64,000 nt of DNA, taken from assembly GCF_011397635.1 (NCBI RefSeq), contig NC_064759.1:12792428-12856427 (forward strand), read 5' to 3'. How positions within the stretch are numbered: the stretch's first letter is position 1; every line of letters starts with the position of its first letter. Positions 2,061 through 31,908 of the stretch are shown piece after piece. Both the position numbers and the translations under genes were made by a program. The notes below the pieces were generated by a model that saw nothing but the letters and a program-made list of their open reading frames with translations, was not told where the DNA came from and made no database searches. Origin of the DNA: Epinephelus fuscoguttatus (lineage: Eukaryota; Chordata; Actinopteri; Perciformes; Serranidae).

Positions 2061-5000
2061 CGACCACACGCTTGTCCTATAGGCGTTGGGTACATAGCCT
2101 ACATGAAGCATTTGACACACAGGAAATATAACAAAAGGAGCTGAAAGCTTGCTTTTCTACTACAGGTGCACATATGGCTGAAATACTCATGTTAAGTAAG
2201 AGTCAGGGCTGTAAAATGTAAGGGGACATTATGGTCATTATAGTGTAATGAAACTACACTATAATTTTGTCTAAATATAAGCCCTGTGCCACTTTGTAGG
2301 CTACACAGGAGAAATGTCCCCCTCCATATTCAGAACGTGTGCAATCAACACTGCTTTGTCATGAATATGATTCTGCCATAAAATTGCATCACAGTTTTTG
2401 CACAGGGCCAAAAACCAGAACCCAACAAAAATCAGTGCCATTGCACACCACAACTGCATGCTGTGTTTCAGCCCGACATGCTGGTCGGGTTCGCAAGTCT
2501 TCAATGCACAAATATGACAGCATGGCATATAAAATACGAGCTTTACAGTCAAACTTTGGGCTTGCGTGTCAAAATGCAATCAGTGGGGCCCCTTAATGTT
2601 CTGCAGTGCATCCTTGATGCTAAGATCTCTGAACATTTTGACTGATACCTGTGAGGCACCTGAGGCATTTGAAACATGATGTGGCAGGTTATGCTGTTTT
2701 ATGTGTTGTCTTTTTCTTTTCAAAGCTGAGGAAAAAGTGTATACAGAAGTATCCACAGAGAAGAATGCAGCTCTATTCAGTCTTTTCAGTCATCACCCTG
2801 ATGATACTGTCTGTTAGGGCTTAATATTTAATCTAAATATTACAGGAATCGCAAACTAGCCAAGTGCAAACCACATGAGATGCAATTCTTTGAAAAAGGT
2901 AAATGGTGTCATGACATGCTGTTGTAAATGAAGCTTTGAGGTGATACAGAGAAGCCTCAGCGTTTAAATAATAATCAAGACATAAGGGAACATGCCTGTT
3001 TGGTACAGACCTCAGCAGAAATCACATCATCATCATTTTTAGATTTGTTACAGTGAAAATGAAATGACCATTCCCACTAAAATCGCGACTCATATCATGT
3101 TAAAATAATCTCGGTAGGACTTTATTTGCATATCCCGCAGCTGTGGAGTAGCAGCTGGACCACAGTACTCTATATACTATGTATTAGTTCAGTATAACAG
3201 GTGATTGCATTCACACTTGTGCTCAGCTCTTAATGCATCCCTGAACACCTCCAGACCTGGTTTGGAAAATCAAATTAAAATCTATCCACCGTACATCCTG
3301 TTTACACCTGTATGTTAATGTGTTTAAGTGCTATCTGACCATAATCAAGTCACTATATGAACACTTATTAACACCAGGTAAAAGTCAAGACTCTGAGGGG
3401 CCTTGTGAGCTTCCCCGCCAGCAGACACCCTCTCATGTTTCACTATGATCTAGCCATCAGGGCCGCTCACACTTCACTTGAAAGCATGAATGATTATTGT
3501 GTTAAGTGTCAGGCACTGACCTGGAGGAGGTCTCTTTCTGAACATCTCCACTCTGCCGGTGTCTTTCTGCTATGGCCCATGAGATTGTCTGCAGAGGGAA
3601 AGAACAGGAGGTGAGGGCAGAACAGAAGCAGCCTTAAAGGAAGACTTTACCTATTTTCAACCAGCTTTTTATAAAAATGTGGGTAGTACGTGTAAATGAA
3701 CTAAGGTAAACTTCCCTCCATCTAACCAGCACCCAGATTTCCCTACTCATCGCCCAGCTCAAATCTAGCAATTGATCATAACATAGCTTCAGGCCGGCTC
3801 AGACCAGACCAACAACTAAGCTGTGCTCCATTGACTCTAATGCAGTCGTTTCAGATTTCCTTCATTTTCAGGCTGGTTTTATGGATTTGGAGCTAAATGT
3901 TGTGCCTGGGGCACGTCGTGTATTAATGATACTCGTTACCTGGAGAGGTTGGAAAAAGATATACGTTTCTTCCCTGTTCCAAAACCAAAATCAAACCCTG
4001 AAAAGTGTAGGGTTAGCTAGCTAGCTACTGAAGATATAGCCTACTGAATGTATACACATGCTGCTTTTGCTTTTTAATGATTATAACAGTGAAAAAAGAC
4101 CGACCCTGCTGTACAGGAACCAGTGAAGGGAAGCAGGGAAACTTTGTTCATATTCAACCAGCTGTGTGTCATCGCATTGTGTGCAGATGAAAGTTGTCTG
4201 ACCATCAGAGATCCCTGCCTGTCCAGCAGTAGAGGTCCAGGTGCTGGCAGCAGCACGGGGGTGAAGCCAAACACCGTTCATCTGCACACACTGCGATGCC
4301 ACACAGCTAGTTCAATGTCAGCAAAGTTTCCCTTTATATTCATTGTCTTGTGTGGCGATCAGCAGTGATGTGGTGGTTCACTTTTACACTGTGATCTGTA
4401 GCCTATAGTTGGGCTTTAGCTTCTAACTATCTTTGTCTTTTTAACCTGTTGTTGCTGCTGAGTCAGTTTGACATCCTGGATATATCCTTCAAACACAGAC
4501 TGTAGACCCCTCTGTCTGCTTCTCTCTGCAATCACTCTTTCATTTCTCCAAAAATATAAGAATATTTCTTCAGGGAGTGCAGTTAGTTATAGTGTGGGCT
4601 CCATGCTTACTGCGATAGCTTGTTGGACCATCACAATGTGCGGGGCTCTAGAGCCTTTGCTCTAATTAAAGATTGTACTTCCATGTTTCTGTAGGCCTGC
4701 CACCATGGACACAAAGAGTATAGAAGTGGATCGAGAGAGGAAGCCAGCTGTCTCTCTACAATTTAGTCCAAATTTAGAACAAACGGTAAAACTAGGAAGT
4801 GCTGATCACATATAAACCAAGATTCTGATTTTAGTGCACTGTTTGGCTGTAATATGAGAGCTTATAAACAGGAAGTGGACGCAATAGGCCTACTGTTGCC
4901 TGTATTGTGAAAAGCAAGCTAAAAAACAGATAAAATGGTAAAACTAAGCAGTGCTGATCAAATATGAACCACGATTCTGTTACTGCATTGCCATATTGTC

Positions 5001-10469: not shown

Positions 10470-13400
10470 TCAGAGCCGTGAAGCTTTTAACTCTATGTCC
10501 TTGTCCCACGTTGTGCTGGGCCGCTTGATTTTGTCACTGATGGTGGAGAGAGTGGTGAGGCTCTCAGGAGGGTCTGGGTCAGGCAGGTGCCAGTGGATGA
10601 AAATCAGATACATGAAAGAACCTATAACACCTCCGAGAAGTGGGGCCACCAGGGGCACCCAGAACCAGTAGTTGTAGCACCTGAGGAGCAGACAGAAAGG
10701 AGTTCAGATGAGAGTTTGTTTGTTTAAATCAGCATTATTCTGTACTTTTTATAATGTTACATGTGAAAGGGATTGCTCAGTGAGAAACCCGCAGAGAGTA
10801 ATTACCCAACTCTGCAGCTCTACAGATCTTTTTTTGCCTCTTTTAAGCCCTATGTTTTGGTTTATGGCCTGGTTAATGGTTCAGTGTCATCACATACTCA
10901 TCACACATTATGTCAGTGCTGTAACGCCCAGCGTGTTTTGGAGTTATTCTGCCCCCTAGTGGCCTTTAATCAATTAATTTAGCTTTAAATAGATTAGATC
11001 AAGCACAAATCTTTGGAGCCACACGAAAACTAAAGGGTCATAAAATCATAGAGCATCAGGTTACATTATCAATCATAGCAGAGTCATAATCAGATGTTCT
11101 GTAACAAGCTGACACTTCATGTTCCTTTGATCCTGCAGAAAGCAGCTGATAACCTCTAACATACGTGGTTTTCTGGGAAACAGAAGGTCAAAGACCTGTA
11201 AGAACGGCAAACAATGTCCCTCTTCAAATGCCACTATTACAGAATGAAATAACTGGTAGATTCATCAGTAAGATGTTTGATAAGTAACACGCATTTTGAA
11301 GTTGCCAGCTTGGAAAGTTGTGTGTGTTTAGTGCCGTGCATGTGCGCTGTATATGTAAGATAAGATACTCACGTGAACACCTCAGTGCCCCAGCCTGCAC
11401 TCAGTGTGAGGAGGCGTGGCCCCAGGTCCCGAGCAGGATTTATTGCTGCACCACAGTTAGCTGACATTGACATGGAGATCCCCAGGACAATCACTGCCAC
11501 TATGGGAGGAATCAGCTCTGAGGGGGCGGGAGTATTCCTCTTTTCATCCAAACATAGGATGCACAACATCAGCATGCCAGTGCCCACTACCTGATGACAC
11601 ATGTAAATAAATATAGAGTTAAATAAAGGAGGAACTGTCAATGCACTGAAGGTCACAAGTATCCTCCCACTGACCTGGTCAAGGAAACTTCTGCCCAAAG
11701 TCAAGTACTCTGAGGGGTATGTGGCAAATATAGACGCAGTCTCATTTGGGCCATATACAGTCAGCACTCCGCCACTGAACTCCATTATAGCATCTGAGAC
11801 AGAAACAGAGGGAACGTAGCAAACAAGAGAACAGACAGATTGAAACTTCTGAATTTATTCAATCTTTATTACGGAGCCCCTAAAGTCCGGAAAGGTCACA
11901 TCTTTTTTATCACAAGTTATTATCTTTTGGGAACAAGTTAATTAATGATCAAGTTAGTTAATTAGGTGGCATGTGAGCATGAATGGTCGTCTGTCTCTAT
12001 GTATCAGCCCTGCAATAGTCTGGCAACCTGTCCAGGGTGTACCCCGTCTCTTAAGTTATTTCCTGTGTTAACTTGTTCCTTTTGTATAATAACTTATGCA
12101 CGCAAGAAAGTAACTTGAGCACAAGCCCAGGGGTCCAAAGTGTCAGGGCCTTGACTGGCAAAATATCACTCAAATTAAGACATGCCAACCAGGAAGAGAC
12201 TCGAAATGACCACAAATAAACATATAACGACTACAAAGAGATGCAAAACAGCTGCAAAGAGACTCAAAGAGGCTCATGACCTCAAAGAGACATGAAATGA
12301 CTACACCAAGATTAAAAAAAGTTACCACAAAAAGATGCAAAGCAACTACAAAGAGGCTCAAAAGGACCACAGAGAGACACTTAACAAATACAAAGACCCA
12401 TAACATGACTACAAAAAGGGTCAAACCAACCAAACACAAAAAACTACAAAGAGATACAAAACAACAGAGAGATGTATAATGACTACATACCCTTTTTCCT
12501 CTTCATTCATTTATTTATTTATGTTATGTGTTATTTCATCTTGTCTTGCTGAGCACTTTGGGCTTAAAATGTGGTAAATAAGTTATTGTGTCATTTATAA
12601 ATGGGTGAATTATTTATATTTAAGCAGTAAAAGATTCAACATTATCGAGTTATTGGTAAATTTTTATTGTTTAATTTGTATTTTTATGTGCGGTGTTTAA
12701 GTGGTGTCATTGCATTCCCTGGGTTAGGAGCTAATTGGTTCCTACCTGCCCTGGTTTTGTGGGGATAGGCATGAGTGATACCCGAGAGAGAGTGAGTGCC
12801 TTGCTTAACAGGGAAGAGAAGTTGCTGTATCTCTAAGTTGGGATGTGTTAGTACTGTCTTATCATATTGGTGAAAATTAAATGAAGAGGAAGAAACAAAT
12901 GTAGCCCGCCTATTACTCATATGTAGTAGAGGTGGTGGGGCCTTATGTATGTCTGTGCCCAGGAGCCCATTGCCTCATACTCTGTTGATGCCTTTCAGGA
13001 CTTTAGGGGCTCCGTACAACTTTAATTTATCACCTTGTCTGTATTTGAATGATAAAGTGTTCGAGGTGCCAGAAAGACAAACCGTAGTAGACCAGGTAGA
13101 CGAGCCCTGACGCCATATAAGCCCCCAGCAGCTGGGAGAGGGAGTAGGGCACCAGCCTTCCCCACGGCACCTGGCCCAACACACAGAAGCTCAGAGTGAC
13201 CGCCGGATTCAAATGGGCACCTACAGAGACAAACAGGAGATGGTGGCAGCAGAAGACAGGAAAGAGGAAGACAAAAGTGAATTAGAGTGTGAGACATTGG
13301 ACGGTAATGAAATCTCAGATTATTTGTAGCCATATACTGTGTCAACCGGTGGATATCCATCAGAGCGAAGACCTTGAAAAGCTGGACGAGGCCTCAGCGC

Positions 13401-15660
13401 AGAGAGCGCCAGACATTAGTGTGATAAATCTAGAGTGTGAGGCAGAAGCTGAGCACTGTTGTATTTTATTTTATGTTCATCTTGCAGGGATGTCAGTGTG
13501 TGAGAGTGTCATATTTTACTGAGTTAAAAGATCACATAATGGGAAAATTTAGTGTGCATTTTATTTACCTGTGATGCCCTTGGTGAGGTACATTGCTGAC
13601 ATCACGCCCACAGAGAAGGCCATGTTGACTGAGAGGAACTGGCCTTTAGTGTCTCTGCTTGTCTTTACCTGCGCTGCAGCCGAGCAGCCAAAGAGCTTCA
13701 CAGCAGATAAAAGAGGAACAGAATTAGTGAGAGGAAAATCAGGAGAAATATTTTACACTTATAGGGAACAAAATAAGACAACTTAATCGCTCTACTGGTG
13801 ACTGATTATTTCTAGGTCAAACGAACTTATCAGTCATCACAGAAACATCTGATGACATTAAAAGGTGATTAATATCCTCTCATGAACTTTGTGATGAAAC
13901 TGCCCACTTCTTATCTGAATGACCATGTATAAATAACGGTGTGACTCTGAGTCCCAAAGATGAAAGGAAGTAAACACACATAAAGTATTTTATGTATTAT
14001 CTTCTAAAAGCCACACCTGCAGTCAGGCTTTTTCTGATGAAACTTTACAGCTTCTAATCACTAATTGAAATTGTTTTATTTATTACAGGCCAAGGTCACA
14101 TTAAAAAAGTTATGGCATCGTAACAATGAAGTACCGAGGCGATTAAAGTTTCTGGCAACAGTAGCTGGCTGAAAAACTGCAGTGATGACATATAAAAGGC
14201 CTGTATGGATAATCATGTGGATTCAACATGCGTCATAATGATTACCAGCAATTCAGTGTATGGATTATATTGGCATATACATCATTTTACATTTGCTTAT
14301 TAGTTCATTTAAGTTTTGCACATCTGACTTTTTCATTTATAGGAAAGGAAATACTGCCATCAAAAAGTATCCTCACCACTCTAATTATAATCCTGGTTAC
14401 ATTGCGTAAATCCCAGTACCAGCTTGATTCCAGGAAGCGGATTAATAATTTATGTTTGCTTTTTCAAACGCTGCCGGAGCATAACTTCAGTCTAAAACTT
14501 CACTACTGGTTCCAGTTTCATGTTTCATCAAAATAAACATTTAAATAAATCAAAAAGAGCCTAAGCACCTGTAAAATCTTTGCACATGAGTTTTCATATT
14601 TCATACTTTGGTTATTATTCCTCTTACATGTAGTGCTATTCATCAATCGAGATTGTTTTAGTGCGAGTTTCCAAGTGTTGGAGATATCAGCCATAGAGAT
14701 GTCTGCCTTCTCTCAAATGTAATGGAACTCAACAGCAATGTCTCTTTTCAGTTATCATGACCTGGTTCCTCAAGATAGTCCACAGTCATTATTGTGAGCA
14801 GTTTCGTGTACGAACTATTTTCTCTCTACGGAACGACACCCACCCACCAAGAAGGAAGTGTGCATCCACTGAGCTAATTTATGTTACAGCTCAGCTGAGG
14901 AGGACACCATTAATGTTTACATCTTGTGCTGTCACGAGCACGAGCCTCTCGTCCATGAGTAGATGCACGCTTCTTTCTGTGCAGTGATACAGTTGGCGGG
15001 TGTAGTTTCGTAGGAAGAAAACAGTTTTTGCTTGAAGCTGCTCACAACAAGATCTGTGGATTATCTTGAGTAACCGGGTCATGATTCCTGGAAAGAGACA
15101 TTGCTGTTGAGTTTTTCAAATTCATTTTTTGGACACTTTGAGCACCACAAGTGAAGTAATATGTAGTTCGATTATATTGGCGAGAAGGTAGACGTCTATA
15201 ACCAATACCTCCAACACTCTGCAACTCACACCAAAACAATCTAGACTGATAAATAGCACTACAGGTAAGAGGAAAAATATGTATTTTTGAATTTGGGCTG
15301 AACTATCTCTTTAAATCTAAGCCATATGCCTATACAACCTGCATACTCACATGTCCAATATACTAAATACAAAATAACTAAGAAATAAATTAAGATACGC
15401 CTCTCTGTATCTCTTTTTGTGTTTCATATGTTTTTATTTTCTTACATTTTAGGAGATTTAAATCTGTTCTGAAACAGTGTATACCTTGTTAGTCAATAAA
15501 AATGGACAATTAGTAAAAAAAAATTAAAAAAAAAAAATAAATAAAAAGCAAATTCAAAAACCTGTGTGTCACTTACCAGCAAGACAAAAGTTCCCAAGAA
15601 CTCAGCCATGCACTCTCGCACCAGAGCATTCCTCACCCTCACAAGCCGTCGGTTCAACAT
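10470..15660 (-). CDS. aqp10: Aquaporin-10, aquaglyceroporin (6 coding exons, complete)
   Basis: Exons in transcript order: 15660-15577, 13695-13569, 13220-13083, 11793-11675, 11590-11373, 10680-10470 (stop TGA). They total 897 nt, 298 aa; human AQP10 is 301. All introns are GT-AG and phases match. Exon lengths 127, 138, 119 and 218 equal those of the mammalian aquaglyceroporin genes. The first NPA is at residues 75-77 (AHLNPAV). The second is at 207-209 within NCGAAINPARDLGPR; R210 is the selectivity-filter arginine and D211 marks glycerol-transporting members. The TASIFATYP loop and FLDQ-VGTGML junction are AQP10-like. It is a six-helix plasma-membrane channel for water, glycerol and other small solutes, typical of intestinal epithelium in fish. 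No frameshift or stop is seen, so it appears functional. Intron 1 holds a foldback element (14600-15314) and intron 3 a tandem repeat (12180-12480). The donor after exon 3 (G|GTTTGT) is weak but gives the correct phase. Which fish paralogue (aqp10a or b) is unresolved. Confidence 0.94.
11968..12050 (+). repeat. Fragment of a common dispersed fish repeat
   Basis: The phrase GGTCGTCTGTCTCTATGTAT followed by CAGCCCTG.AATAGTCTGG and CCTGTCCAGGGTGTACCCCG matches the copy at 39750-40065 and the reversed copies at 27120-27680. Only the middle part survives here, in aqp10 intron 3. Confidence 0.7.
12180..12480 (+). repeat. Imperfect tandem repeat of about 20-25 bp units (CAAAGAGA.RCAAAAYGACTA)
   Basis: Units of the form GACTACAAAGAGATGCAAAA recur about a dozen times with drift (GACCACAAA, AGACTCAAAG, AGACACTTAA). 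The same unit builds the array at 25560-25810. A reversed trace is at about 52730-52775. The basic Lys/Thr/Arg-rich open frame over it is translation of the repeat. Confidence 0.85.
14600..15314. mobile_element. Foldback (long inverted repeat) element in aqp10 intron 1
   Basis: The left arm (from about 14600) and the right arm (to about 15314) are imperfect reverse complements of roughly 300 bases each. Both arms encode, in opposite directions, related short frames (MTWFLKIVHSHYCEQFRV and MTRLLKIIHRSCCEQLQA), which shows the inversion clearly. Both carry the phrase CCTCTTAC.TGTAGTGCTAT and its reverse GATAAATAGCACTACAGGTAAGAGG. The same arm sequence bounds the larger element at 30410-31908 and makes up the solo copy at 47999-48265. 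No transposase is present, so it is non-autonomous. Confidence 0.85.
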
Positions 15661-17366
15661 TGCTGGAGTTAAATCCCTCTTCTCATCTCACACTGAACTT
15701 GTTCTCTGCTCTCAGACAGACCAGCTGTCAGTCTGTCCGTCTCCCCGTCTGTCAAGGAGCTGATATACTGCTGTAAGTGGAGGAGGTGTCAGTGCTGATG
15801 CTATTAAAAAAAAAACAGTTTCCTGACTCAACTTCCACCTGAGCATCTGAAGACCTGCACTCTGTATCCTGACTCTTCCGCTTCTCTGCCTTCTCTTTCT
15901 CCACAGCTGGTCAAACACTGATGTTCATTTATTGTGTGGTCACACCTCAGGATTGGCTGGCGCAGAGAGCGTAATGTGCCTCAGCTGTTGCATATACTGA
16001 ACAAGGCCATAAACAGTAAGATTATGTATTGATGGCACTGATAGGGGGCAATAAACCACATCATATGTATACAGCGGAAACCTGCCTACTCCTTTGAAGA
16101 CCCCAGGTACAGATATTCATTCATCCCGAGGTTTCAATAATCTGAGTTGTGCGAGACACCACAGGTAACAATTACCATCTTGCATGCATACCAATGTTTT
16201 ATATACTCTTATTTCTCTATTAAAGAACCAGTATGCCTCAATAAATTAACACATGTTTTATGTTTAAACCATAAAATGGCAAAAAGAAACCCTGATGCAG
16301 CCTGCCTTTGACCTGTGGGTTCATCTGAATGCGTTTCTATGTGGAATTAAAGTCCAAAAATATCCATTTATGAATGTAGAAATTATATTTTTACTTGTGT
16401 GGTGAAACCGTCCTTAGTGAGTGTTAGGTAAGATGGTTGATAGGGAAGCCCCTCTCATCATCAGAGAGCAAGATGTCACCATAACCCCTCTTCACTGAAC
16501 TTTGGACTCCTAATGGATTATGTAACCAAAATAATTGCTGTGCAGCAGTTAACAGTCGTATTATTGCTGATAATTTCCAGAGAGGCACATGACTGTGGCA
16601 GGAAAGAATCTCTTGAGATCAGATAAGATAAAAGAGCCACTGGTGAAACTGCTTTGATATCTGTCATTTTACTGCTATTTTATCTGTAAAAAGGTTATAC
16701 TTTGAGTTTGGGGATTTGAGTTAAGGTAAAATGATGAAAAAACTCCAAACAGCTTGTGACATCATATCTTATCGCATCTACGCTCGAGGAATATCGCTGT
16801 TTGGTAATGTGTAAAAGGACAGATACCTTTACCCTGCTTCTGAGTTTTGTCCCAGGGCTTTTTCTGTGAGCTGATAGCAAGATGATAACACTATATCTCC
16901 CTCTGCAGGATATACGAATAAAAAGCATCACATTTAGTTAGGATTTATTAAAAAGCAATATAAACTCTAAATGCTGTCGTTAGCTTCTATTCACAATATA
17001 TTACAACATATATTTTCATTTACAGGTGCCACATTAATAGCTGAACAAAGTATCTGTTACAAAGTTTGGTTGACTTAACAAATGCATGAGCCGTCAGTGC
17101 ACTTAAATTCTGGCTGATACAGAATTATATCCCAGGCCTTGAGGTAGATGTAATCCTGTAGATAAAGTAAAAAGTACACACTTTTGACCTGGTCTCCAAG
17201 ATTATATTTCCTGTAGGGATTTCTCATAATGACTTGTTTTGATGGCATAGGCCCCGGATGGCTCGCTTAATCCATGTCAAGTTCTCAGCCACTAAGGGAT
17301 GGCTTTTAGCTTCTTGTCCGTCATCAGTCACTGAATGTTGCTCTGCCCCAGGTAGCTAAACAATCT
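15661..17366. other. Intergenic spacer, aqp10 5' side to IL16-like 3' side
   Basis: It contains the presumed aqp10 promoter (immediately above 15660, no clear TATA) and the 3'UTR of the IL16-like gene with AATAAA on the minus strand at 16944-16949. No other coding signal is seen. Confidence 0.55.
16944..16949 (-). terminator. Poly(A) signal AATAAA for the IL16-like gene
   Basis: The plus strand reads TTTATT, so the minus strand has a canonical AATAAA about 420 bases after the stop at 17367. It implies a 3'UTR of roughly 440 bases. This is inferred from position and motif only. Confidence 0.5.
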
Positions 17367-20300
17367 TCATGTTTCCAGATGTTTAAGAGGGCGGCGAAGC
17401 ACCACGTCCACAGGCCCGGGGGGAAGTCCTCTGATCAGAGTCCAGGCCTCCAGGCGTCTCATCCCCACCACGCTTACACCGCCAATCTCTTCAACCTCAT
17501 CACCAGGACACACCTTGTCAACAGGACCTCCTGAAGGAGAAAGAGTGGGTATAATGAACATGTATGTATACAAAAAGGGGCCAAACTGAAGCAGCCAAAA
17601 TGAAAAGGTAATGTAGCATGTGTATGGTTTATAAATTCCCCGAATAGGCACGTTTTAAGGTATGTAAAAATACTCTGCTACGATTGATCATTTGTTTATC
17701 ACGGTTTTCCTACGTTAAAAAAACTCAGAAAAGGGGCCTGAAGCAGATCTACTCCTTCTCCCTCATTGATACACTCTGCATCTGACCTTGGGCCCTGTCC
17801 ACCCAAAATTCCAATGTCAGCCGGTAAATCCAAAAACAAATGCCTATTGCTCCAAAGCCCATTTCACCAAAAATATATTTCCTTTAGTTAGTTTCCAAAT
17901 ATCGATTGAGCCACTCATCCCGGGTGTTTTTAGCGACCCTTTGCAGCATTTCCCAACAGCGTTTCAGCCACTGATACCACAGTTTTTACCCACCCTTCAT
18001 GGAGTTTCACAGCAGTGTTTGAAACTCCAATCCTGGGTTACTTTACCAACCCATCCCTGCTTTTCCAGCAACTTCTGTGCCACCAAATGTAGTGTTTTAA
18101 GCCAGAACATGATCCTTTTCCAACTGTAACCAAGAGGTTTTTGTACCTAAACCTAACCACACATTCACCACAGCATTGTTGACAAATGTAAAGTATCTGT
18201 GGTTTACAGAAATGTACAATGCAAACATTTTTTCTGGTGATTGGGTTGTCTAACTCCGGAGAGTGTATATTTTCAAGGAAATAGGACTTCAAAGCTATGG
18301 GCATCTGTTTTTGGGATAATGGGCTGTCAGAGAAAAGGGCTTACAGTGTGAAGAGACATTTTTTTGGACTAGTGGGGCTTTGGAATTTTGTGCCTCAGGG
18401 GAATGGCCGATCTCTCTGTACTGACAACTACGCTCTGCCTTGGAGGGTTTAAGGTCTCTTTGCCGATGTTATGTCAAAGTCTCTTCCCCTGTCAATATGT
18501 GTCTTCCATGTTAGACAGCAACTGGCCTTTGTAAAGGTGATGTACCTAATCTAGGTTGCCTGGGGTATATTTGAATCTCAGATTTTAGGGATGTATACAG
18601 ACATCTCCCGTTTTAGTAAAGGAATTTGATAAGACCTCTCTGGTGACAGACTTTGCAGAGATACAAGTCGTTTATAGTCAAGGTCAGATATTTTAGGGGT
18701 CATAAATATAAGAAAAACATATTGTTTAGTAAAGGGTATATTTGAATTTTAAATCTTAATTCTGACAGGGTTGCTTAACGTATAACCTCTTTGGGGAATG
18801 TAAAAGATATGGTGTTCAAATGAAGTTCAAGTCTCTGAGCTTCAGTTCTCACCCTGGAAGATCTTCTGCACAGTGAGTGGTCTGTTCCCCAGAGTGGAGT
18901 CCACACCTCCCTCCAGACTGAAGCCCAGATCCCTGCTGTTCTTCTCCAGACGCACACACACACGCTGACCTGAGAGAGCACATAAGCAGAAAAACCGAGA
19001 TCAGTATCTGACTTTAAACTGATTCAATACTAATATCTTTTCAGAACTCAGGTAAAGCACGACCTCTCACCTGCCTGTGTTGGCTCCTGATTATTTGTCT
19101 GTGCTCCCACCTTGCAAACACCACTACTCTCTTCCCTCCTCAGGACAACCACCCCCATCTCTCGAGTCTTTGCTCTCCTCAGGATCCTCAGGGCCTCCCA
19201 GTGGGCGAAGCCACACAGTGCCGTGCCGTTGATCGACAGGACCTGGTCGCCTTCCCTAATGGAGCCTTCCTTGGCTGCAACACCTGAGTGAAACACCCTG
19301 TGAACCTGTAAAGAAGACACAAAGGGACAAATGAGGAGACTGAGAACAATCTATTTGAAGATTTTTTTCAGGAGAATGCAGGAAGGAGTGTTTTCTTACA
19401 GTGATAGGCTTGTTCTGATCTTTGCCTCCCGCCAAACTGAAGCCCAGTCCCACTCCCATGTCCTTATGGAGAACCACCACCTGCACATCGTTGTAGTCCT
19501 GCAAAAAGGGAAGGCAGAGAGAATGAGAAAGAAGTCGTAGTTACACTCTTCTTGTGTTTTCCTGATTTTGTAGTTTGAATTTTGCATGGGAAAAGTGACA
19601 TAATTCATGCCACAAAAGCTGCAAAATTACTGATGCTGTTGTTTGTACCTGTAGGTTGTTGTCCCCCACGCTCCTGACATCCTCCAGGAGCCTGTCAAGC
19701 TCCTCACTGGGCATCACAGACACACAAGACAGGGCTGACATGTCTGAGCTCAGCGAGGCTGTCCGATGTTTAGTAGATTGCCACTCATCGCTGTCAGTCT
19801 CTGACTCATAGTCAACTCCAGCAAAGTTACAAAGTTCTGAAAGACTACAGGGAGGAAAGAAAAAAGTTCTGGGGTTAAAAAACTGACGTATTGTTGGAGG
19901 GAATACTTCCAGCTAATCAAAAATGTGGTACTACAAACGGTACACACCTGACACAGAAGCTCCTGTGATCTGACTGGCTCATGTTACTAGTGATGGTCAC
20001 CGAGGACTCTCCAGAATCTGAGTCATAGTTTGAATCCTCATCCCTCTGCGTACTCTCATCATCGTCCTCATAATCATCTTCGTCGTCATTCCAGACCTTT
20101 ATCTCTGGGGTCAAACCAGCTACCCAAGCATTCAAGTCCAACACCTGCTTCTTCGCCTTTGGACTGGATGTGCTGACATCTGAAGAGATGAGATCAGGGA
20201 GGTTGCTGTAGGAGGAAGTGGCGAGGGGCTGAGGGAGAGGTGGCAGATCTGGTTCAGGAGTTTTGGCTGCTTGTGTGGTAACAGAAGTACTTTTATTTTC

Positions 20301-22508
20301 ACCGTCTGCAATGGGAATGATGTTTTGCGGTTGCGTGGTAGGTGAAAGAGTAGGTGAGTTGTTTGGAGAGTTTGTTGGAGTCTTGTCGTCGTCACTAACA
20401 GGTGAAGTGACATCAGGCGGTGTTGTTTTCTGTACGTAAGTGTAAGTGTCACTAGAGTCGGACAGTAAGGACGGTAGTTTCTCGCTTGGTGTCTCAGGGC
20501 TTGAGATTTTGTGGAAATCTGTTTCATCGATGTAAAAGTTTCTCCGTTTTTCTTGAGCTCCTTCACCTAGAGGGATTTCTAATGTGCTCTTGAGTCTGGA
20601 ATATTTACCAAAATCTTCGGCATAACCACCACCACTTTCTTTTCCCTCATTCTCAACCAAATCACTCCCTCCTCTTTCTTCCCTCAACAATCTCAGTCCA
20701 ACCTCGTCCACTGATAAAGACCTGTTTGACCCAAGTTTCTGTCCTGCTCCTGACGCCTTCTCCTCAGCTTTTTCATTGCCCTCCCCTCCTTCTTTCAACC
20801 CCTCCCACTTGTATCTCAGTCCACCTACCGCTCTTGCTGATCCACTCTTTTTCACTCCATCATGAGCCCTGCTGAGTTGTGTTGGCACAGAGAAGGCCCG
20901 TCTGGGCAGCAGGACCTGTCCTGTAGCCAAACCCTGAGCTCTCTGTGAGAGAGCCTCAAACTGATTTATCTTATTTCTCACACTGGCTGCAGAGGCGGAT
21001 GACAACCTCTCTGGGAATCGCTTCCTCTCTATTGTTTTCACTGCCAAGTCCACTGGGTTTGACTCAAACACGTCTTCATCAGTGCTGCTACTCTTTGATT
21101 CATTTTTTTCTTTTGCTCCATCATTTGTCTCTTTTTCCGTCTCTTCATGCAACCCAGTGTTTTCCCTCAATGGCTCATTTATTCTATTAGTCTCGCTCTT
21201 CATCCCGCTCCAATCCCAACTCCCACTTGCTCTTCTCTCCCTACAACCAGACGAATCTCTCAAAGACACTGATCTCCCTTCTTCTAAGAAACTGTTGGAC
21301 TGCAAAGATGGAGTAATTCCTGCTGCAGCCCTTGCAGATCTTATCTGAGCTGCTACACAGTACCTGCTCCTCGCTCTGTCTAGAGACCTCGTGCCCATTT
21401 CCTCTAATCCTCTATGCCAGTTAACGCCCCCTTCCTCTGAATACTTACCCTGGACCTGTCCTTGCCATTGTATCCCTGACAATCTCTCCCTGGTCCTGCT
21501 CGTCCTCGGAGAAAGTGAAGTCTCAGAACCTGACATGTCTTTTTGTGTCCAGGTGAATGAGTTCCTGTTTTGCAGTGGACTTAAGCTGCTTTTGTCTTCA
21601 GAAGAGAAACGCCTGGGGAAGGTTCCCCCTGATGCCCTCTCATATTTAGAGGTAGAGGAGTCCCTAGTTTTGCTGGAATCCTCCGTTTTTGCAAAACCAG
21701 CTGAGCCGTAGAGTTTCTCTATCCGCTCCATTATACTCTGACCTCCTTGAGGCCCACTCAAAGATGTCCCTCTGACACCAGAGCCAGGTCCAGACAGGGA
21801 CCTCAGCCTAGTGGGGAGAGAACTGCCCCGACTGGTCCTGTCCAAAGTCTGACTCACGTGACTCACTGGGCTCCTCTCTTGAACATTACTTGTAGCTGCA
21901 GAGTTATAGGCCTGTATTGAAGACATCACCCTGCCCCTCAAGCCTTCAATTCCAGTCCTTCTTTCATCCAAGCCACTTTTGGTTGAAAATGCATAGTCAG
22001 CCCTTTTGCCATAATCGGGACTTGATGCCCCCGATCTCCAATCTAAACTCTTACTTCTGCTCGGCAGGTTGTATCTCCTCCAGTCTGTCCTGCCCCGGCT
22101 TTCAGATGCAGGGTTAAAGTTTCCACCTCTGTCAGTGCCAAACTCTGTGATAGTTTTGTCTGCTGCGCCATTCTGGTTCAGCTTGGTAAACGTTTTATGG
22201 CTTGACATTTCCTCCTCCTCACACTGACCTATGACACTGCTGCGACTCCCAGTCCTGGCTTGATAACCAGTGACTGTGGGATCCTCCTCCTTGCTTGTGC
22301 CATTTGCGCCAGTGTGCGTCTCGCATCTCTCTCTGTTGCTGGCTTCCTCAGCACTTTCCTTCTCCTCTAAAAAACCTGTGGGTTTCCTAACACCTGGCCT
22401 GCGAGTGAGACTGTAAGAGGGAGAATTAGCTGAGCGGACAGTGAAGCGTGCTTCTGTCCTCTGCCCGCTGTACTCACTCACTCGAGTAGGGAGCATGGAC
22501 AAGTCCAT
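17367..22508 (-). CDS. Pro-interleukin-16-like protein with two C-terminal PDZ domains (6 coding exons)
   Basis: Coding exons: 22508-19948, 19844-19649, 19498-19400, 19305-19071, 18969-18853, 17530-17367 (stop TGA); 3372 nt, 1123 aa, all GT-AG and in phase. Residues 1 to about 850 come from one giant exon and are low complexity, Ser/Arg rich (many SR, RSxS and SP sites). There is a Ser-Pro/Thr-Pro cluster near 690-730, a short non-polar motif [14 protein letters not shown] near 790, and an acidic tract near 805-835. PDZ1 (about 924-1010) carries [11 protein letters not shown] and [17 protein letters not shown]2 (about 1035-1118) carries [31 protein letters not shown] and [16 protein letters not shown]. 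These match the order and wording of the last two PDZ domains of pro-IL-16 ([23 protein letters not shown]). Pro-IL-16 acts as a PDZ scaffold and its C-terminus is released by caspase-3. Here the inter-PDZ linker has no aspartate, and the chain ends RRPLKHLET, unlike the human RRKS-type tail. The start ATG follows a splice-acceptor-like TTTACTCTCAG, so 5' non-coding exons probably exist. It could instead be named as another PDZ scaffold; family confidence is high, orthology is not. Confidence 0.82.
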
Positions 22509-23995
22509 TGTCTGAGAGTAAACAAAGTTAATGACCTACTGTCAAGTGCCAAATCCCAAAAAGAGAGCGGGAGAGTGAACTTGATATTTAAGCGATTCCA
22601 AGCAACTGTCTTTTGGGCTGCAATCTGGAAGCAGTTTGTCTGAATGCTGCAGCTGTGTGTGTGTAAAAAAGCAGTGAAATGGCAGCACAATTACAGCCCT
22701 CACATTAGTTTCTTGCACAGCAACAAATCGTGCATTAAAAAGCTTGATATTTCAGCAGTACTCCTGATGATTCTCTGATTTGCGGCCTAGAAGAGATGAC
22801 TCCTCTGGGCTCCTTTCCTTGATCTCTTGCCGTTCTGCCCCTCTGAGTCTTCAGTTCCCCAGCACGACTTCAGCGAACAGCTCCCGTCGCCTGCCAAGCA
22901 TAAAAATGTACAAATTTCCATCCTGAGAACGGATTGGGCTGGAATGTTGTGATATGTGGATTGTGGTCACTCTGGCTCTTCAAAATGGTCAAACAGAATC
23001 ACAGAGTAGTTGAGGACAGTGAACTCAACATGTTATAGAGACACATGAAGTGGACAGTGAATGGAAACGATAAGAAGAAAAAATCAAAGATAGAGGGCCA
23101 GAGGAACAAGTTAGTTGTGTCAGTTATGTCATTTTGCAATATGTCCCTACTCTCCTGACATTCCCTTCATACTGACTCAATAAGCCCATTCACAGGACGA
23201 TGGGACTCAGATAATGCACACACACACACACACACATCATAACGGCTGTTTACACAGGCAACATACTCATGACTACCTGTCAGCGTCAGCTAAACCTGAA
23301 CCAAAAACTGGAAAAACTCACCTAACTGCAATCCACCCAGTAAAAACAATGTATTAAAGTGCCACATTAGTCTCTGTGCAGTGCGTATCGGTCTCACAGA
23401 GCCACAACTGAAATCTTGTAACAGTGGAAATGATCAGATAAGGTGGACAAAGATGGGAACAAAGTCACTTTGATTTACATACAGAGTTAGATAGCGTTAC
23501 TGATGGACAATGGCTCATGAGGGATATCCGAGGTCACAGCTGTACAAGACAGACACTGTCAGTAAGCCAGTGGAAACACCTTTGATTTTTAATCAGGTCA
23601 GAATTAGTATCTAATCATCTCTATTGACATCAAACACAAATAGGCTGTTGATTCACTGTACAAATCCAACAGGGCAACAGCATTTGATAAGCACTGCCTG
23701 CATGATTACATGAAGCTGTTTAGGTTCAGCATGTAACTTTGAGCAACAGCCTCTGAGGTGCTTTCCGTTGCAGGTGAGTCTGAGTGTCGGTTTACAGAAA
23801 CACCTGTTCTCCTAGGTCACAAAGCCTCCCATCTGGGTAACCTGGGTAACACTGCATGGTTTAATTTAAACGCCAACTGAACAGCAAGAAAGACCCAAAT
23901 GCACCCAGGCAACAGGCACAGAAATACACACGCTTACTTCCCCACATAATCAATAATTAACTTATTAATGACACACTCACACACATGTGCCTTAC

Positions 23996-27516: not shown

Positions 27517-29980
27517 CACACTTACAGACAATTTAGAGTCACCAATTAACTTGCATGTCTTTGGACTGTGGGAGGAAGCTGGAGTACCTGGAGAAAACCC
27601 ACGCTGACACAGGGAGAACATGCAGACTCTGCACAGAAGGGCTCCAGGAATCAGGAACCCTCTTGCTGTTAGGTGACAGTGCTAACTCTATTTTTATTTG
27701 TTTATCTTATTTATCGAACAGGGACAGTACACAGCTACTTAGCTGCACCAGAGTTAGCTATAAGCTCATTTTCATCTGTAGTCCCTGGGCAGGAAATGGA
27801 GGATAACGTCTCTGCTAAAAGACACTATAATATAAAAAACACAGTTATAAAATAGAACATATTCATGACACACAATGGCTTCAGCAATAACAATAGCAAG
27901 ACAACCCAACATCAAGTCATTGCAACAATAACAGCAACAACAGTACAACTACAACACTAAGACACCACAACAGCAACATTACAGTATAACAAGATTTCAT
28001 AATGTAAGATCGAGTGTTTGATTTCATGTGTGATGGGGACATGAGTTCATCTTAAATTTGAAACCAACAAAGCTGTTTTCTTTCTTATCTCACTTGGTGC
28101 TGAGTTTCAATAGTTTGTGGCTCTAAGAGAGAAAGACTGATCTACAAAACTCAATAGGTCTCTGCTGCATTGCACAGTCGCATCTGTTGGTCGTCCTAGA
28201 TGTCCTCCTGTTGTCTGAGCGCAGTTGTATGAATTTAAAGTTAAGAGTTAACTGCTGAAAATGTTTATCACTTGTGTTAGAGTTACTCTCATGACATTTT
28301 AGCTTCCCAGGATAAGATAAGGTTAAGCTAAAATAAATATATCACTCTCTGGGTTTCATATCTACATGAACAGATCTAAGATCTATTAGGTTAGTAACCT
28401 GATAATTATCTCTACATTCCTACTCATTTACTGTGTGTTTTCTTTTATTTATTTGTTCTGCTTATCAATTACTGGCATTTTGTCTACTACTCTTAAAATA
28501 GTAAAACAAACAAGCAAAAAAATTGATCCCTAAACTGACGTCTAGATTTTTTCTAGGTCTTTGTTTTGCTGTTCATCTTTGTCAAAAGACAAATTATGCG
28601 GTTTGCCATGAAGTCTCGAAGAGGACCACATGTTCCTCTCGGCCACAATGCTCCCAAGGTAACACACACAGACCATAATAACCAGAAGTGTGATGCTGTG
28701 TGGTGTTCTGCAGATTAACTATAGCTGGGTGTCTCTCGTGTGTGTCCTGTAGGAGCTGAGACAAGAAATTGAAGCCAAACTGAGCCAGGTTCAGAAAATC
28801 CACTTTGAGCCTCGTCTGCTGTCCCCAGACGATGACCGACTAAAGCACAGAGAACAGTCTGGTTAGAGAGACACAAAAAACAAATGTGTACACACATATA
28901 GTGCTGAAACAATCTACATGAGTACTTCTTATACAAGTGTACAGTAGATTCTGTGTGTGTTGCAGGTTCCAGTGACTACCTGTACAGGATGAGAGCACTG
29001 GATGCCATCAGAGACACAGGTTAGCTTTGCTGTCACTCATTTTAGTCACAGTTTAGTTTTGCTGCACTCACAGACTGTTACAATACCACCTGTACGTTCT
29101 GTCAACAGATCTGCCTTTCCGTGAACTGGGTGGCTCGTCCACTGCTGTGACGGGTAAAAGACTTCGGACGTGGCTACTGCGGCTACGAAACTCTGAGTGC
29201 ATGTTCCGAGATGGCCTGAGCTCGCTCATCGACACAGTGCTGGATGGGTACAACAAAGCACGCCATGGGGCTGAGGTCAGTGTCTCTGTGTGTGTTTGGG
29301 TATCAGAAATGTATCATCTCATCTTTTGTATAAATGAATAAGAAAATTTAGTCTAAAAAGGCGGATACAGTCATGTATATACTTTAAATTTGAAAAGAAT
29401 AACATCTGGAAAAGTCAAATTTGTATTATAACAGTAGATATGTTACGATAATGTAGTATCCTTATGATTAGCATGATTTCCATTTTTACCACAGAGCCTA
29501 TCTTTGTGTGTACTGTATATCGTGATTGCAGGAAGAGCTGACAAATGCACCGATGTCCTGTTTTTGTCTGCAGGCTTTTGGTGAAGCAGAGTTTTTGAAA
29601 TACCAGGAAGCTCTGACTGAACTGGCTTCTGTGTGAGTAAACACAACCTCTCCTCACAGTGCTCCCTCACAGCTTTCCGTTTCTGCTAATCCCACCATGG
29701 AATGTTAATCACACACTGCGAACAACCTGTTTCTCCCTTTTCTGCTTTCAGCGTCAAGTCTCACAGCAACAGCAGCAGCAGCAGCAGCACTACGAGCCAG
29801 TACCACCAGTCCGCAGCCAAAGACCTGACCAGCGCCACAGAGCCTGCTAGCTCCTCCTCCTCCCCCACCCAAACCACCTACCTCACATCTTCGATGCAAC
29901 AGCGCAGCAAGCGGCCCAGGAACTTCCTGGAGCTGAAGAACTTCAAAGACAACTACAACACTCTGGACAGCACGCTCTGA
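26313..29980 (+). CDS. c1orf43: C1orf43 (NICE-3) family single-pass membrane protein (7 coding exons, complete)
   Basis: Exons: 26313-26375, 28557-28658, 28753-28861, 28966-29019, 29109-29275, 29574-29632, 29752-29980 (TGA). They total 783 nt, 260 aa, all GT-AG with matching phases; human C1orf43 is about 253. An N-terminal membrane segment (about residues 10-30, INVVLVMAYGSLVFVLLFIF) is split by intron 1 and followed by KRQIMRFAMKSRRGPHVP, essentially unchanged from human. Other shared blocks are DYLYRM.ALDAIR, LIDT.LDGY..AR, KYQEAL.ELA, HQSAAKDL and the C-terminus FLELK.FKDNYNTL.STL. The protein is intracellular and membrane-anchored. Human work links it to phagocytosis and organelle (Golgi/mitochondrial) localisation, but its molecular activity is not known. 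The last exon has a serine run encoded by an AGC repeat. Intron 1 (2.2 kb) carries reversed dispersed repeats and a CA microsatellite. Confidence 0.97.
27120..27680 (-). repeat. Two reversed copies of a common fish dispersed repeat with embedded (AC)n
   Basis: The sequence CCATAACCACTTATCCT, followed by a G/A-rich run and GGAGCCTATCCCAGCTG, occurs twice, at about 27128-27210 and 27355-27420. It is in opposite orientation to the copy at 39750-40065. The second copy continues through a (AC)n run (about 27466-27512) into ACAATTTAGAGTCACCAATTA and CATGTCTTTGGACTGTGGGA, the far end of the same consensus. It lies in c1orf43 intron 1. Confidence 0.85.
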
Positions 29981-30409: not shown

Positions 30410-31908
30410 TAAAGGGACAGTTCAACTCCAAGTTAAAAATACATACTGTATCTGTTACCTGTAGTGCTGTTTATCAGTCTAGATTGTTTTGTTGTGAGTT
30501 GCAGAGCGTTGGAGATTGGCTGTAGACATATCTGCCATCTCTCAAATATAATATATAACTGGATGGCACTCGGCTTGTGGTGCTCAAAGTGTCAAAAAAT
30601 GCATTTGTAGCCGTGGAGAACGTCAACAAGCCTTTTGTCCATGAGTAGATGAACGTTTCCTTCTGTGCTCTGATACAGTTGGTAGGTGTAGTTCAACTGA
30701 ATTGACACAAGGTCCCGCCGCCGGACGCAGACTGGCCAATCATAACGTAGCATCAGGCCAGCTCAGACCAGGGTCCGACAACAACACAGCTGTGCTCCAT
30801 TGACTCTAATGCAGTCGTTTCAGATTTCCTTCATTTTCAGGCTGGTTTTGTGGATTTGGAGCTAAATGTTGTGCCTGGGGCACGTCGTGTATTAATGATA
30901 CTCGTTACCTGGAGAGGTTGGAAAAAGATATACGTTTCTTCCCTGTTCCAAAACCAAAACCAAACCCTGAAAAGTGTAGGGTTAGCTAGCTAGCTACTGA
31001 AGATATAGCCTACTGAATGTATACACATGCTGCTTTTGCTTTTTAATGATTATAACAGTGAAACAAAGGCCGACCCTGCTGTACAGGAACCAGTGAAGGG
31101 AAGCAGGGAAACTTTGCTCATATTCAACCAGCTCTGTGTCATTGTATTGTGCACAGATGAATGTTGTTTGGCGGTGGAGGTCCAGGTGCTGGCAGCAGCA
31201 CGGGGGCTAGGCCAAACACGGTTCATCTGCACACACTGCGATGCCACACAGCTAGTTCAGTATCAGCAAAGTTTCCCTTATATTCATTGTCTTGTGTGGC
31301 GATCAGCAGTGATGTGGTGGTTCACTTTTACACTGTGATCTGTAGCCTATAGTTGGGCTTTAGCTTCTAACTATCTTTGTCTTTTTAACCTGTTGTTGCT
31401 GCTGAGTCAGTTTGACATCCTGGATATATCCTTCAAACACAGACTGTAGACCCCTCTGTCTGCTTCTCTCTGCAATCACTCTTTCCTTTCTCCAAAAACA
31501 TTATAACATTTCCTCAGGGAGTGCAGTTAGTTACAGTGTGGGCTCCATGCTTACTCTGTCAGCTTGTCGGACCATCACAAAGGGGCGGGGCTTAGTGAGA
31601 GGTCAAATAGAAAGAAAATAGTTCCTACATGAAACTGCTCACAACAAGGTCTGTAGATCATCTTCAGTTACCGGGTCATGATTTCTGGAAAGAGACATTG
31701 CTGTTGAGTTGTTCAAATGTATTTTTTGACACTTTTAGCACCACAAGCCGAGTGCCATTGACTTTTATTATAATGGAGAGAAGGCAGACATCTCTGCGGC
31801 TGATATCTTAAACACTCGGCAACTCACACCAAAACAATCTAGATTAATAAATAGCACGATAGGTAAGAGGAAAAAATTGATTTTGGGGTTAACTGTCCCA
31901 TTAATGGT
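30410..31908. mobile_element. 1.5-kb non-autonomous element with about 300-bp inverted ends (copy B)
   Basis: The left end begins AAAGGGACAGTTCAACTCC and the right end reads ATTTTGGGGTTAACTGTCCCA, its imperfect reverse complement. The inverted match continues inward for roughly 300 bases (CTAGATTGTTTTG.TGTGAGTTGC against its reverse). The ends match the foldback element at 14600-15314. The interior matches copy A (3785-4665). A TAA trinucleotide flanks both ends and may be a 3-bp target duplication, as in PIF/Harbinger-like elements. No transposase frame exists. It sits 400 bases after the c1orf43 stop. Confidence 0.85.

Follow-up and report, generated by a model that had tools for sequence, protein, structure and literature searches.

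A third IL16/PDZD2-type gene between aqp10 and C1orf43 in Epinephelus fuscoguttatus, probably a product of the early vertebrate genome duplications

IL-16 is unusual among cytokines in that it is a PDZ domain cut out of a scaffold protein, and excerpts of the literature place its human gene at 15q25.1 (PMC9836357) or at 15q26.3 (PMC7486693). In the window analyzed here, a stretch of 64,000 nucleotides from Epinephelus fuscoguttatus, a gene ending in an IL-16-like PDZ pair is located between aqp10 and C1orf43 in a block of 1q21 type, which raises the question of what this gene is and how it came to stand there. The gene, referred to as X in the following, runs on the minus strand from its ATG at 22508 to the end of its stop codon at 17367, both positions being exact. 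In this genome it joins il16 and a pdzd2-like gene as the third gene of the IL16/PDZD2 family. We consider it fairly probable that X is the third vertebrate member of this family derived from the early genome duplications, and that its product acts as a cytoplasmic scaffold.

The gene model comprises six exons on the minus strand with 1123 codons (3372 bases including the stop), GT-AG at every junction and no frame break. Exon 1 (19948..22508), an open frame up to the donor AG/gtgtgt, encodes a Ser/Arg/Glu-rich region with no domain over the Pfam cut-off, and exon 2 (19649..19844; GT-AG, in frame) adds an acidic stretch and a short stretch ahead of the PDZ pair. The first domain, PDZ-A, begins in exon 3 (19400..19498, with GLGFSLAGG), whose intron position is common to il16 and pdzd2, and continues in exon 4 (19071..19305), which contains a His in an HWEAL stretch and an Asp-free linker. 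PDZ-B is divided between exon 5 (18853..18969, with DLGFSLEGG) and exon 6 (17367..17530), the latter carrying a Trp that aligns with residue 99 of PDB entry 1i16 as well as the stop codon. A pseudogene could be ruled out by the 1123 open codons and clean junctions, and a retrocopy by the retained introns. Directly before the ATG, at 22509-22520 on the minus strand, lies the acceptor-like sequence ttactctcag, so that a further, unmodelled 5' exon may exist.

PDZ is the only Pfam family over its cut-off in X (E 3.5e-22, two stretches). PDZ_6, PDZ_2 and PA-IIL remained below their cut-offs, and NCBIfam returned only bacterial PDZ proteases, far below theirs. The last 271 amino acids were compared with PDB by phmmer, and the best 60 of 253 matched sequences were considered. 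Both PDZs match human IL-16 first and in the domain order of IL-16: PDZ-A finds the human IL-16 PDZ 1x6d (E 2.2e-25), and PDZ-B the C-terminal PDZ in 1i16 and 5fb8 (E 4.6e-22 and 1e-21). With values of 2e-25 and 5e-22, chance similarity to IL-16 could be ruled out. The best non-IL-16 match among these 60 is the multi-PDZ protein DLG4 (E 6.4e-20), and no chain named PDZD2 was among the 17 hits of a separate search. A PDZ profile run across 220 kb (from 97 kb left to 117 kb right of X) matched four exons of X; no other PDZ was found in this range, the three remaining hits having E values of 2.6 to 7.3.

A family search of the genome (1.05 Gb in 26 contigs; 49 candidates scored) gave 15 matches, namely five window exons, three on contig C2, two on C6 and five elsewhere, and reported no second copy of X among them. 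The loci on C2 (C2:137700-183595) and C6 (C6:5574102-5574955) match both PDZs; the five matches elsewhere cover the first PDZ only and were left out of the tree. An additional search located the final exon of the C6 gene. An earlier genome PDZ search (150 of 423 candidates scored) was not used because X was missing from its list. The C2 gene is il16: across both PDZs it agrees with human IL-16 in 122 of 179 residues (68.2%). The C6 gene is pdzd2-like (54.1% identical to human IL-16) and lies 106 kb from a GOLPH3-family gene; we take it to be pdzd2, a presumptive name based on this neighbor. X shares 85 of 178 residues over PDZ-A and PDZ-B with fish il16 (47.8%), 82 of 178 with fish pdzd2 (46.1%) and 90 of 176 with human IL-16 (51.1%). 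In comparison, il16 and pdzd2 are 54% identical, which makes X, at 46-51%, the most divergent member, and X is not an IL16 orthologue by its closeness to human IL-16, in which it ranks behind both il16 and pdzd2. Since it is about equally far from il16 and pdzd2, X is a third IL16/PDZD2 member and not simply a second IL16.

Common architecture supports this assignment. Introns C/D (phase 0), D/E (phase 1, donor side) and E/F (phase 1) coincide in all three genes, as does the B/C acceptor; for D/E of il16 the best of several candidate donors was taken. X has the tandem C-terminal PDZ order of IL16 and shares with it the Trp and the R-x-E-A-W stretch of the last PDZ, where PDZD2, with the same PDZ pair, has HHDAW. 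The number of domains differs: X has two PDZs, neuronal IL-16 two additional N-terminal ones according to excerpts of PMC12171437, and PDZD2, described as similar to pro-IL-16, has six according to excerpts of PMC10319068. The preliminary description had read 17367..22508 as an IL16-type tandem PDZ gene with aqp10 and C1orf43 as neighbors in a block of 1q21 type. Gene model, Pfam and PDB matches bear out the gene, and MIP and NICE-3 matches in the neighbors its position. The proposal of a second IL16 ohnologue holds as far as family membership is concerned, and X is no copy of il16 by identity, but its place is that of a third IL16/PDZD2 member. The C-terminal exons of fish il16 are scattered across some 46 kb, and large introns of this gene contain frames resembling pieces of open reading frame 1 of long interspersed nuclear elements and of reverse transcriptase (L041 3096-3707, L042 946-1611).

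What the product of X does can be judged from residues in and around the PDZ pair. GLGF and the His of PDZ-A stand in one column in X, fish il16, pdzd2 and human IL-16. Such a His is typical of class I PDZ domains, and with it and an intact GLGF loop PDZ-A should bind C-termini of the type S/T-x-hydrophobic. The Trp of PDZ-B is likewise present in all four proteins; because pdzd2 has it too, it is not diagnostic for IL16. Residue 99 of 1i16 is, as we assume, the Trp that fills the IL-16 PDZ groove, and the IL-16 peptide site is reportedly occluded, as the title of a 1998 study has it. With this groove Trp kept, PDZ-B probably serves assembly and not tail binding.

According to excerpts of PMC7486693, caspase-3 cleaves pro-IL-16 in the stretch that separates PDZ2 from PDZ3. 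The corresponding linker of X, in contrast, has 24 amino acids and no Asp, which makes an IL-16-type release of the last PDZ unlikely, so that this domain alone would not be expected to leave the protein. In fish pdzd2 the linker contains several Asp. The linker of fish il16 (L042 2068-2300 and 2568, on C2) has none with the best donor (gtgaga), and one alternative donor would give it a single Asp; judged from this sequence, caspase-3 may fail to release the last PDZ in fish il16 too. Since the il16 linker appears to be Asp-free as well, this feature does not separate X from il16. A family member without a cleavable linker, in a genome in which il16 seems to lack the Asp too, can be compared with IL-16 to ask at what point and by what route the use as a cytokine emerged.

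Could X nevertheless work as the precursor of an IL-16-like secreted cytokine? PDZ-B resembles mature IL-16 (42 of 86 residues) and keeps the Trp. Ahead of the PDZ pair, X carries an SSTD site (474) and D-x-x-D sites (661, 684, 808, 809, 812, 920), at which a caspase could conceivably free both PDZs jointly, a point against the view that nothing is released. The linker without Asp speaks against such a precursor, as do the lack of RRKS in the X protein, taken here as an activity motif of IL-16, and a start that by eye is unlike a signal peptide, although IL-16 has no signal peptide either. Overall we regard a cytokine role as very unlikely. If fish databases call X IL16-like, the function of IL-16 should not be transferred.

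In the scaffold reading the PDZ pair follows a long region that is probably disordered and phosphorylatable. Within the first 915 residues RxxS occurs 20 times compared to 11.7 in shuffled sequences (reached by 11 of 1000) and S/T-P 17 times compared to 10.2 (6 of 1000). Four more phosphosite patterns gave less: RxxSxP, at 46 of 1000, is borderline, and the other three (99, 211 and 241 of 1000) show no clear enrichment. A motif S-V/I-R/K-x-K-I-x-x-F-E is found in the long exons of X, il16 and pdzd2, its significance being modest and partly circular: the E value of its profile (about 1e-5, one sequence) is biased because the profile was built from stretches first seen via X hits. It is with the pdzd2 exon of this fish that X shows its most extended N-terminal similarity (KTIERKRF...), a best local alignment reached by 4 of 500 shuffles. 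Those of X with il16 (104 of 500) and of il16 with pdzd2 (246 of 500) bypass the motif.

How X came to its present place is best approached from the surrounding chromosomes. We infer that the early vertebrate genome duplications most likely gave rise to X alongside IL16 (15q25-type) and PDZD2 (5p13-type). In this fish X would have remained in its block of 1q21 type, and it would supply the 1q21 member of a duplicated gene set spread over 1q, 15q and 5p. A nicotinic receptor gene 96 kb from X has its best paralogue (84%) on C2, the contig of il16 (95 matches; 120 of 137 candidates scored), in a cluster with the orientation +/-/-, like chrna5-chrna3-chrnb4; the human CHRNA5-CHRNA3-CHRNB4-type cluster lies, as we take it, at 15q25.1. 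The GOLPH3 family has two genes in this genome, one being the neighbor of pdzd2 on C6 and the other on C18; a location beside such a gene distinguishes pdzd2 from X. The one match to an MTMR10-12-type gene (8 candidates) is, like il16, on C2. These nicotinic and GOLPH3-family pairs link the chromosomes and thereby favor the early vertebrate duplications.

Several observations weigh against this origin or reduce the force of its support. The link of X to the chromosomes of il16 and pdzd2 is of chromosome scale only, so that it favors the duplications and is not proof of them. Nicotinic clusters of similar make-up also occur on C9 (76%) and C3 (75%), so that the link to C2 is not unique, and on C2 itself il16 is 17 Mb from the cluster. 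Of MTMR10-12 only that single gene was found and none near pdzd2, beside which MTMR12 would presumably be expected; the GOLPH3-family, nicotinic and MTMR genes are, moreover, presumptive assignments by place. The N-terminal similarity across the family is weak. The trees, finally, comprise one genome, one human protein (IL-16) and no pre-vertebrate outgroup.

The preliminary description had also taken paralogues of the window genes as a link to 15q21. The N-terminal part of the first cgn exon finds one further gene, on C17 (74%; the C-terminal half found only itself), and there a cgnl1-like gene (20.139 Mb) and an aquaporin (20.26 Mb) adjoin. No IL16 relative was reported beside this pair in the family search with its 49 candidates, however, and il16 is on C2, which also counts against the early duplications. 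For the window aqp10 exon the highest identities are on C18 (52%, 58%). Since those on C17 are close (50%, 56%) and C1 and C4 come first by E-value, naming C18 the twin of the window's block is guesswork. Of the TMC exons found in a further search (15 matches), one lies on C2 at a distance of about 1 Mb from il16, but others lie on C8, roughly 1.7 Mb away from the window, as well as on C3, C6, C18 and C19, which decides nothing.

The phylogeny of the PDZ pair suggested by the same description was run with four taxa. Under LG and WAG the pairing of fish il16 and human IL-16 leads by 0.5 to 0.65 log units, and JTT prefers X with fish il16 by a marginal 0.06. All three topologies lie in the confidence set under LG, JTT and WAG, including X as sister of fish il16 (approximately unbiased test, p 0.291 with LG, 0.551 with JTT, 0.244 with WAG), and these results, too, weaken the case for an early origin. 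In a tree of 13 domains X_B groups with the two IL16 PDZ-Bs (ultrafast bootstrap 87), where it pairs on a long branch with human IL-16 PDZ-B (60), again at odds with that case; X_A stands outside the remaining PDZ-As (61). As the four-taxon tree leaves the order unsettled, the dating of X rests on its genomic place.

The topologies within the confidence set give room to a late origin, in which il16 was duplicated in the third, teleost-specific round and the copy, X, evolved rapidly and was transferred to the block of aqp10. Fish il16, however, is far nearer to human IL-16 (122/179) than to X (85/178), and residues common to one pair only number 26 for il16 and human IL-16, 11 for X and human IL-16, 8 for X and pdzd2 and 4 for X and il16. 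The two-against-two sites follow the same order, with 4 for fish il16 and human IL16, 2 for X and human IL16 and 1 for X and fish il16. A twin of the il16 region should also have 15q25-type neighbors and not aqp10 and C1orf43, and we regard such a late duplicate as highly improbable. The divergence of X, at 46-51% compared to 54% between il16 and pdzd2, and the fact that no IL16 relative was reported beside the C17 cgnl1-like gene would fit an older or small-scale DNA duplicate of the IL16/PDZD2 ancestor, with its introns retained, that arrived in the block independently of the whole-genome duplications; the nicotinic and GOLPH3-family pairs, which tie the chromosome of X (and C18) to those of il16 and pdzd2, make this explanation unlikely. 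Within the preferred origin in the early duplications, a further-reaching scenario is put forward tentatively and with some doubt: X would have been kept in fish beside aqp10 and lost in mammals, preserving a purely intracellular scaffold role that preceded the IL-16 cytokine and gave rise to it, and release of the last PDZ was perhaps invented outside fish, given that fish il16 also seems to have no cleavable linker.

The neighborhood was read from left to right over 220 kb including the window, and the order is pogz-like, il6r-like, atp8b2-like, aqp10, X, C1orf43, tuft1-like, cgn, she-like and nicotinic-type receptor. In the aqp10 gene (minus strand, approximately 10473..15687) Pfam recognizes MIP in two exons, 11372-11854 and 13033-13281 (E 3.4e-9 and 2e-13); the exons further out were identified by eye, with no Pfam match for 10473-10703. 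Exons of C1orf43 lie at 29057..29977 on the plus strand, with NICE-3 matched in 29057-29338 (E 5.8e-8) and 29690-29977 assigned by eye without a Pfam match. The il6r-like receptor has Ig over and fn3 below the cut-off together with WSEWS, and the atp8b2-like P4-ATPase the motifs DKTGT and GDGAND. By eye only were assigned the pogz-like and she-like genes (no Pfam match), the tuft1-like coiled coil (nothing over cut-off) and cgn (myosin-tail match below cut-off). The nicotinic-type gene presumably encodes a beta subunit. For human 1q21 we assume the order C1orf43-UBAP2L-HAX1-AQP10-ATP8B2-IL6R, and we know of no counterpart of X in that block. The titles and abstract openings returned by a literature search were not about X, and the main texts of four aqp10 papers contain no mention of il16, atp8b or C1orf43, nor of PDZ in the three where this was sought.

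Two repeats were seen in this neighborhood. A near-identical open frame (VVSDFLHFQAGF...DLELNVVPGARRVLMILVTWRGWKK) at 3782-4021 and 30751-30990 is a dispersed repeat. Beside the she-like gene, L011 (C8:12876862-12879020) contains a long tandem array that can be read as NNLSWHYPDRKRSDVSVKD repeats on one strand and, on the opposite strand, as a Cys-rich unit.

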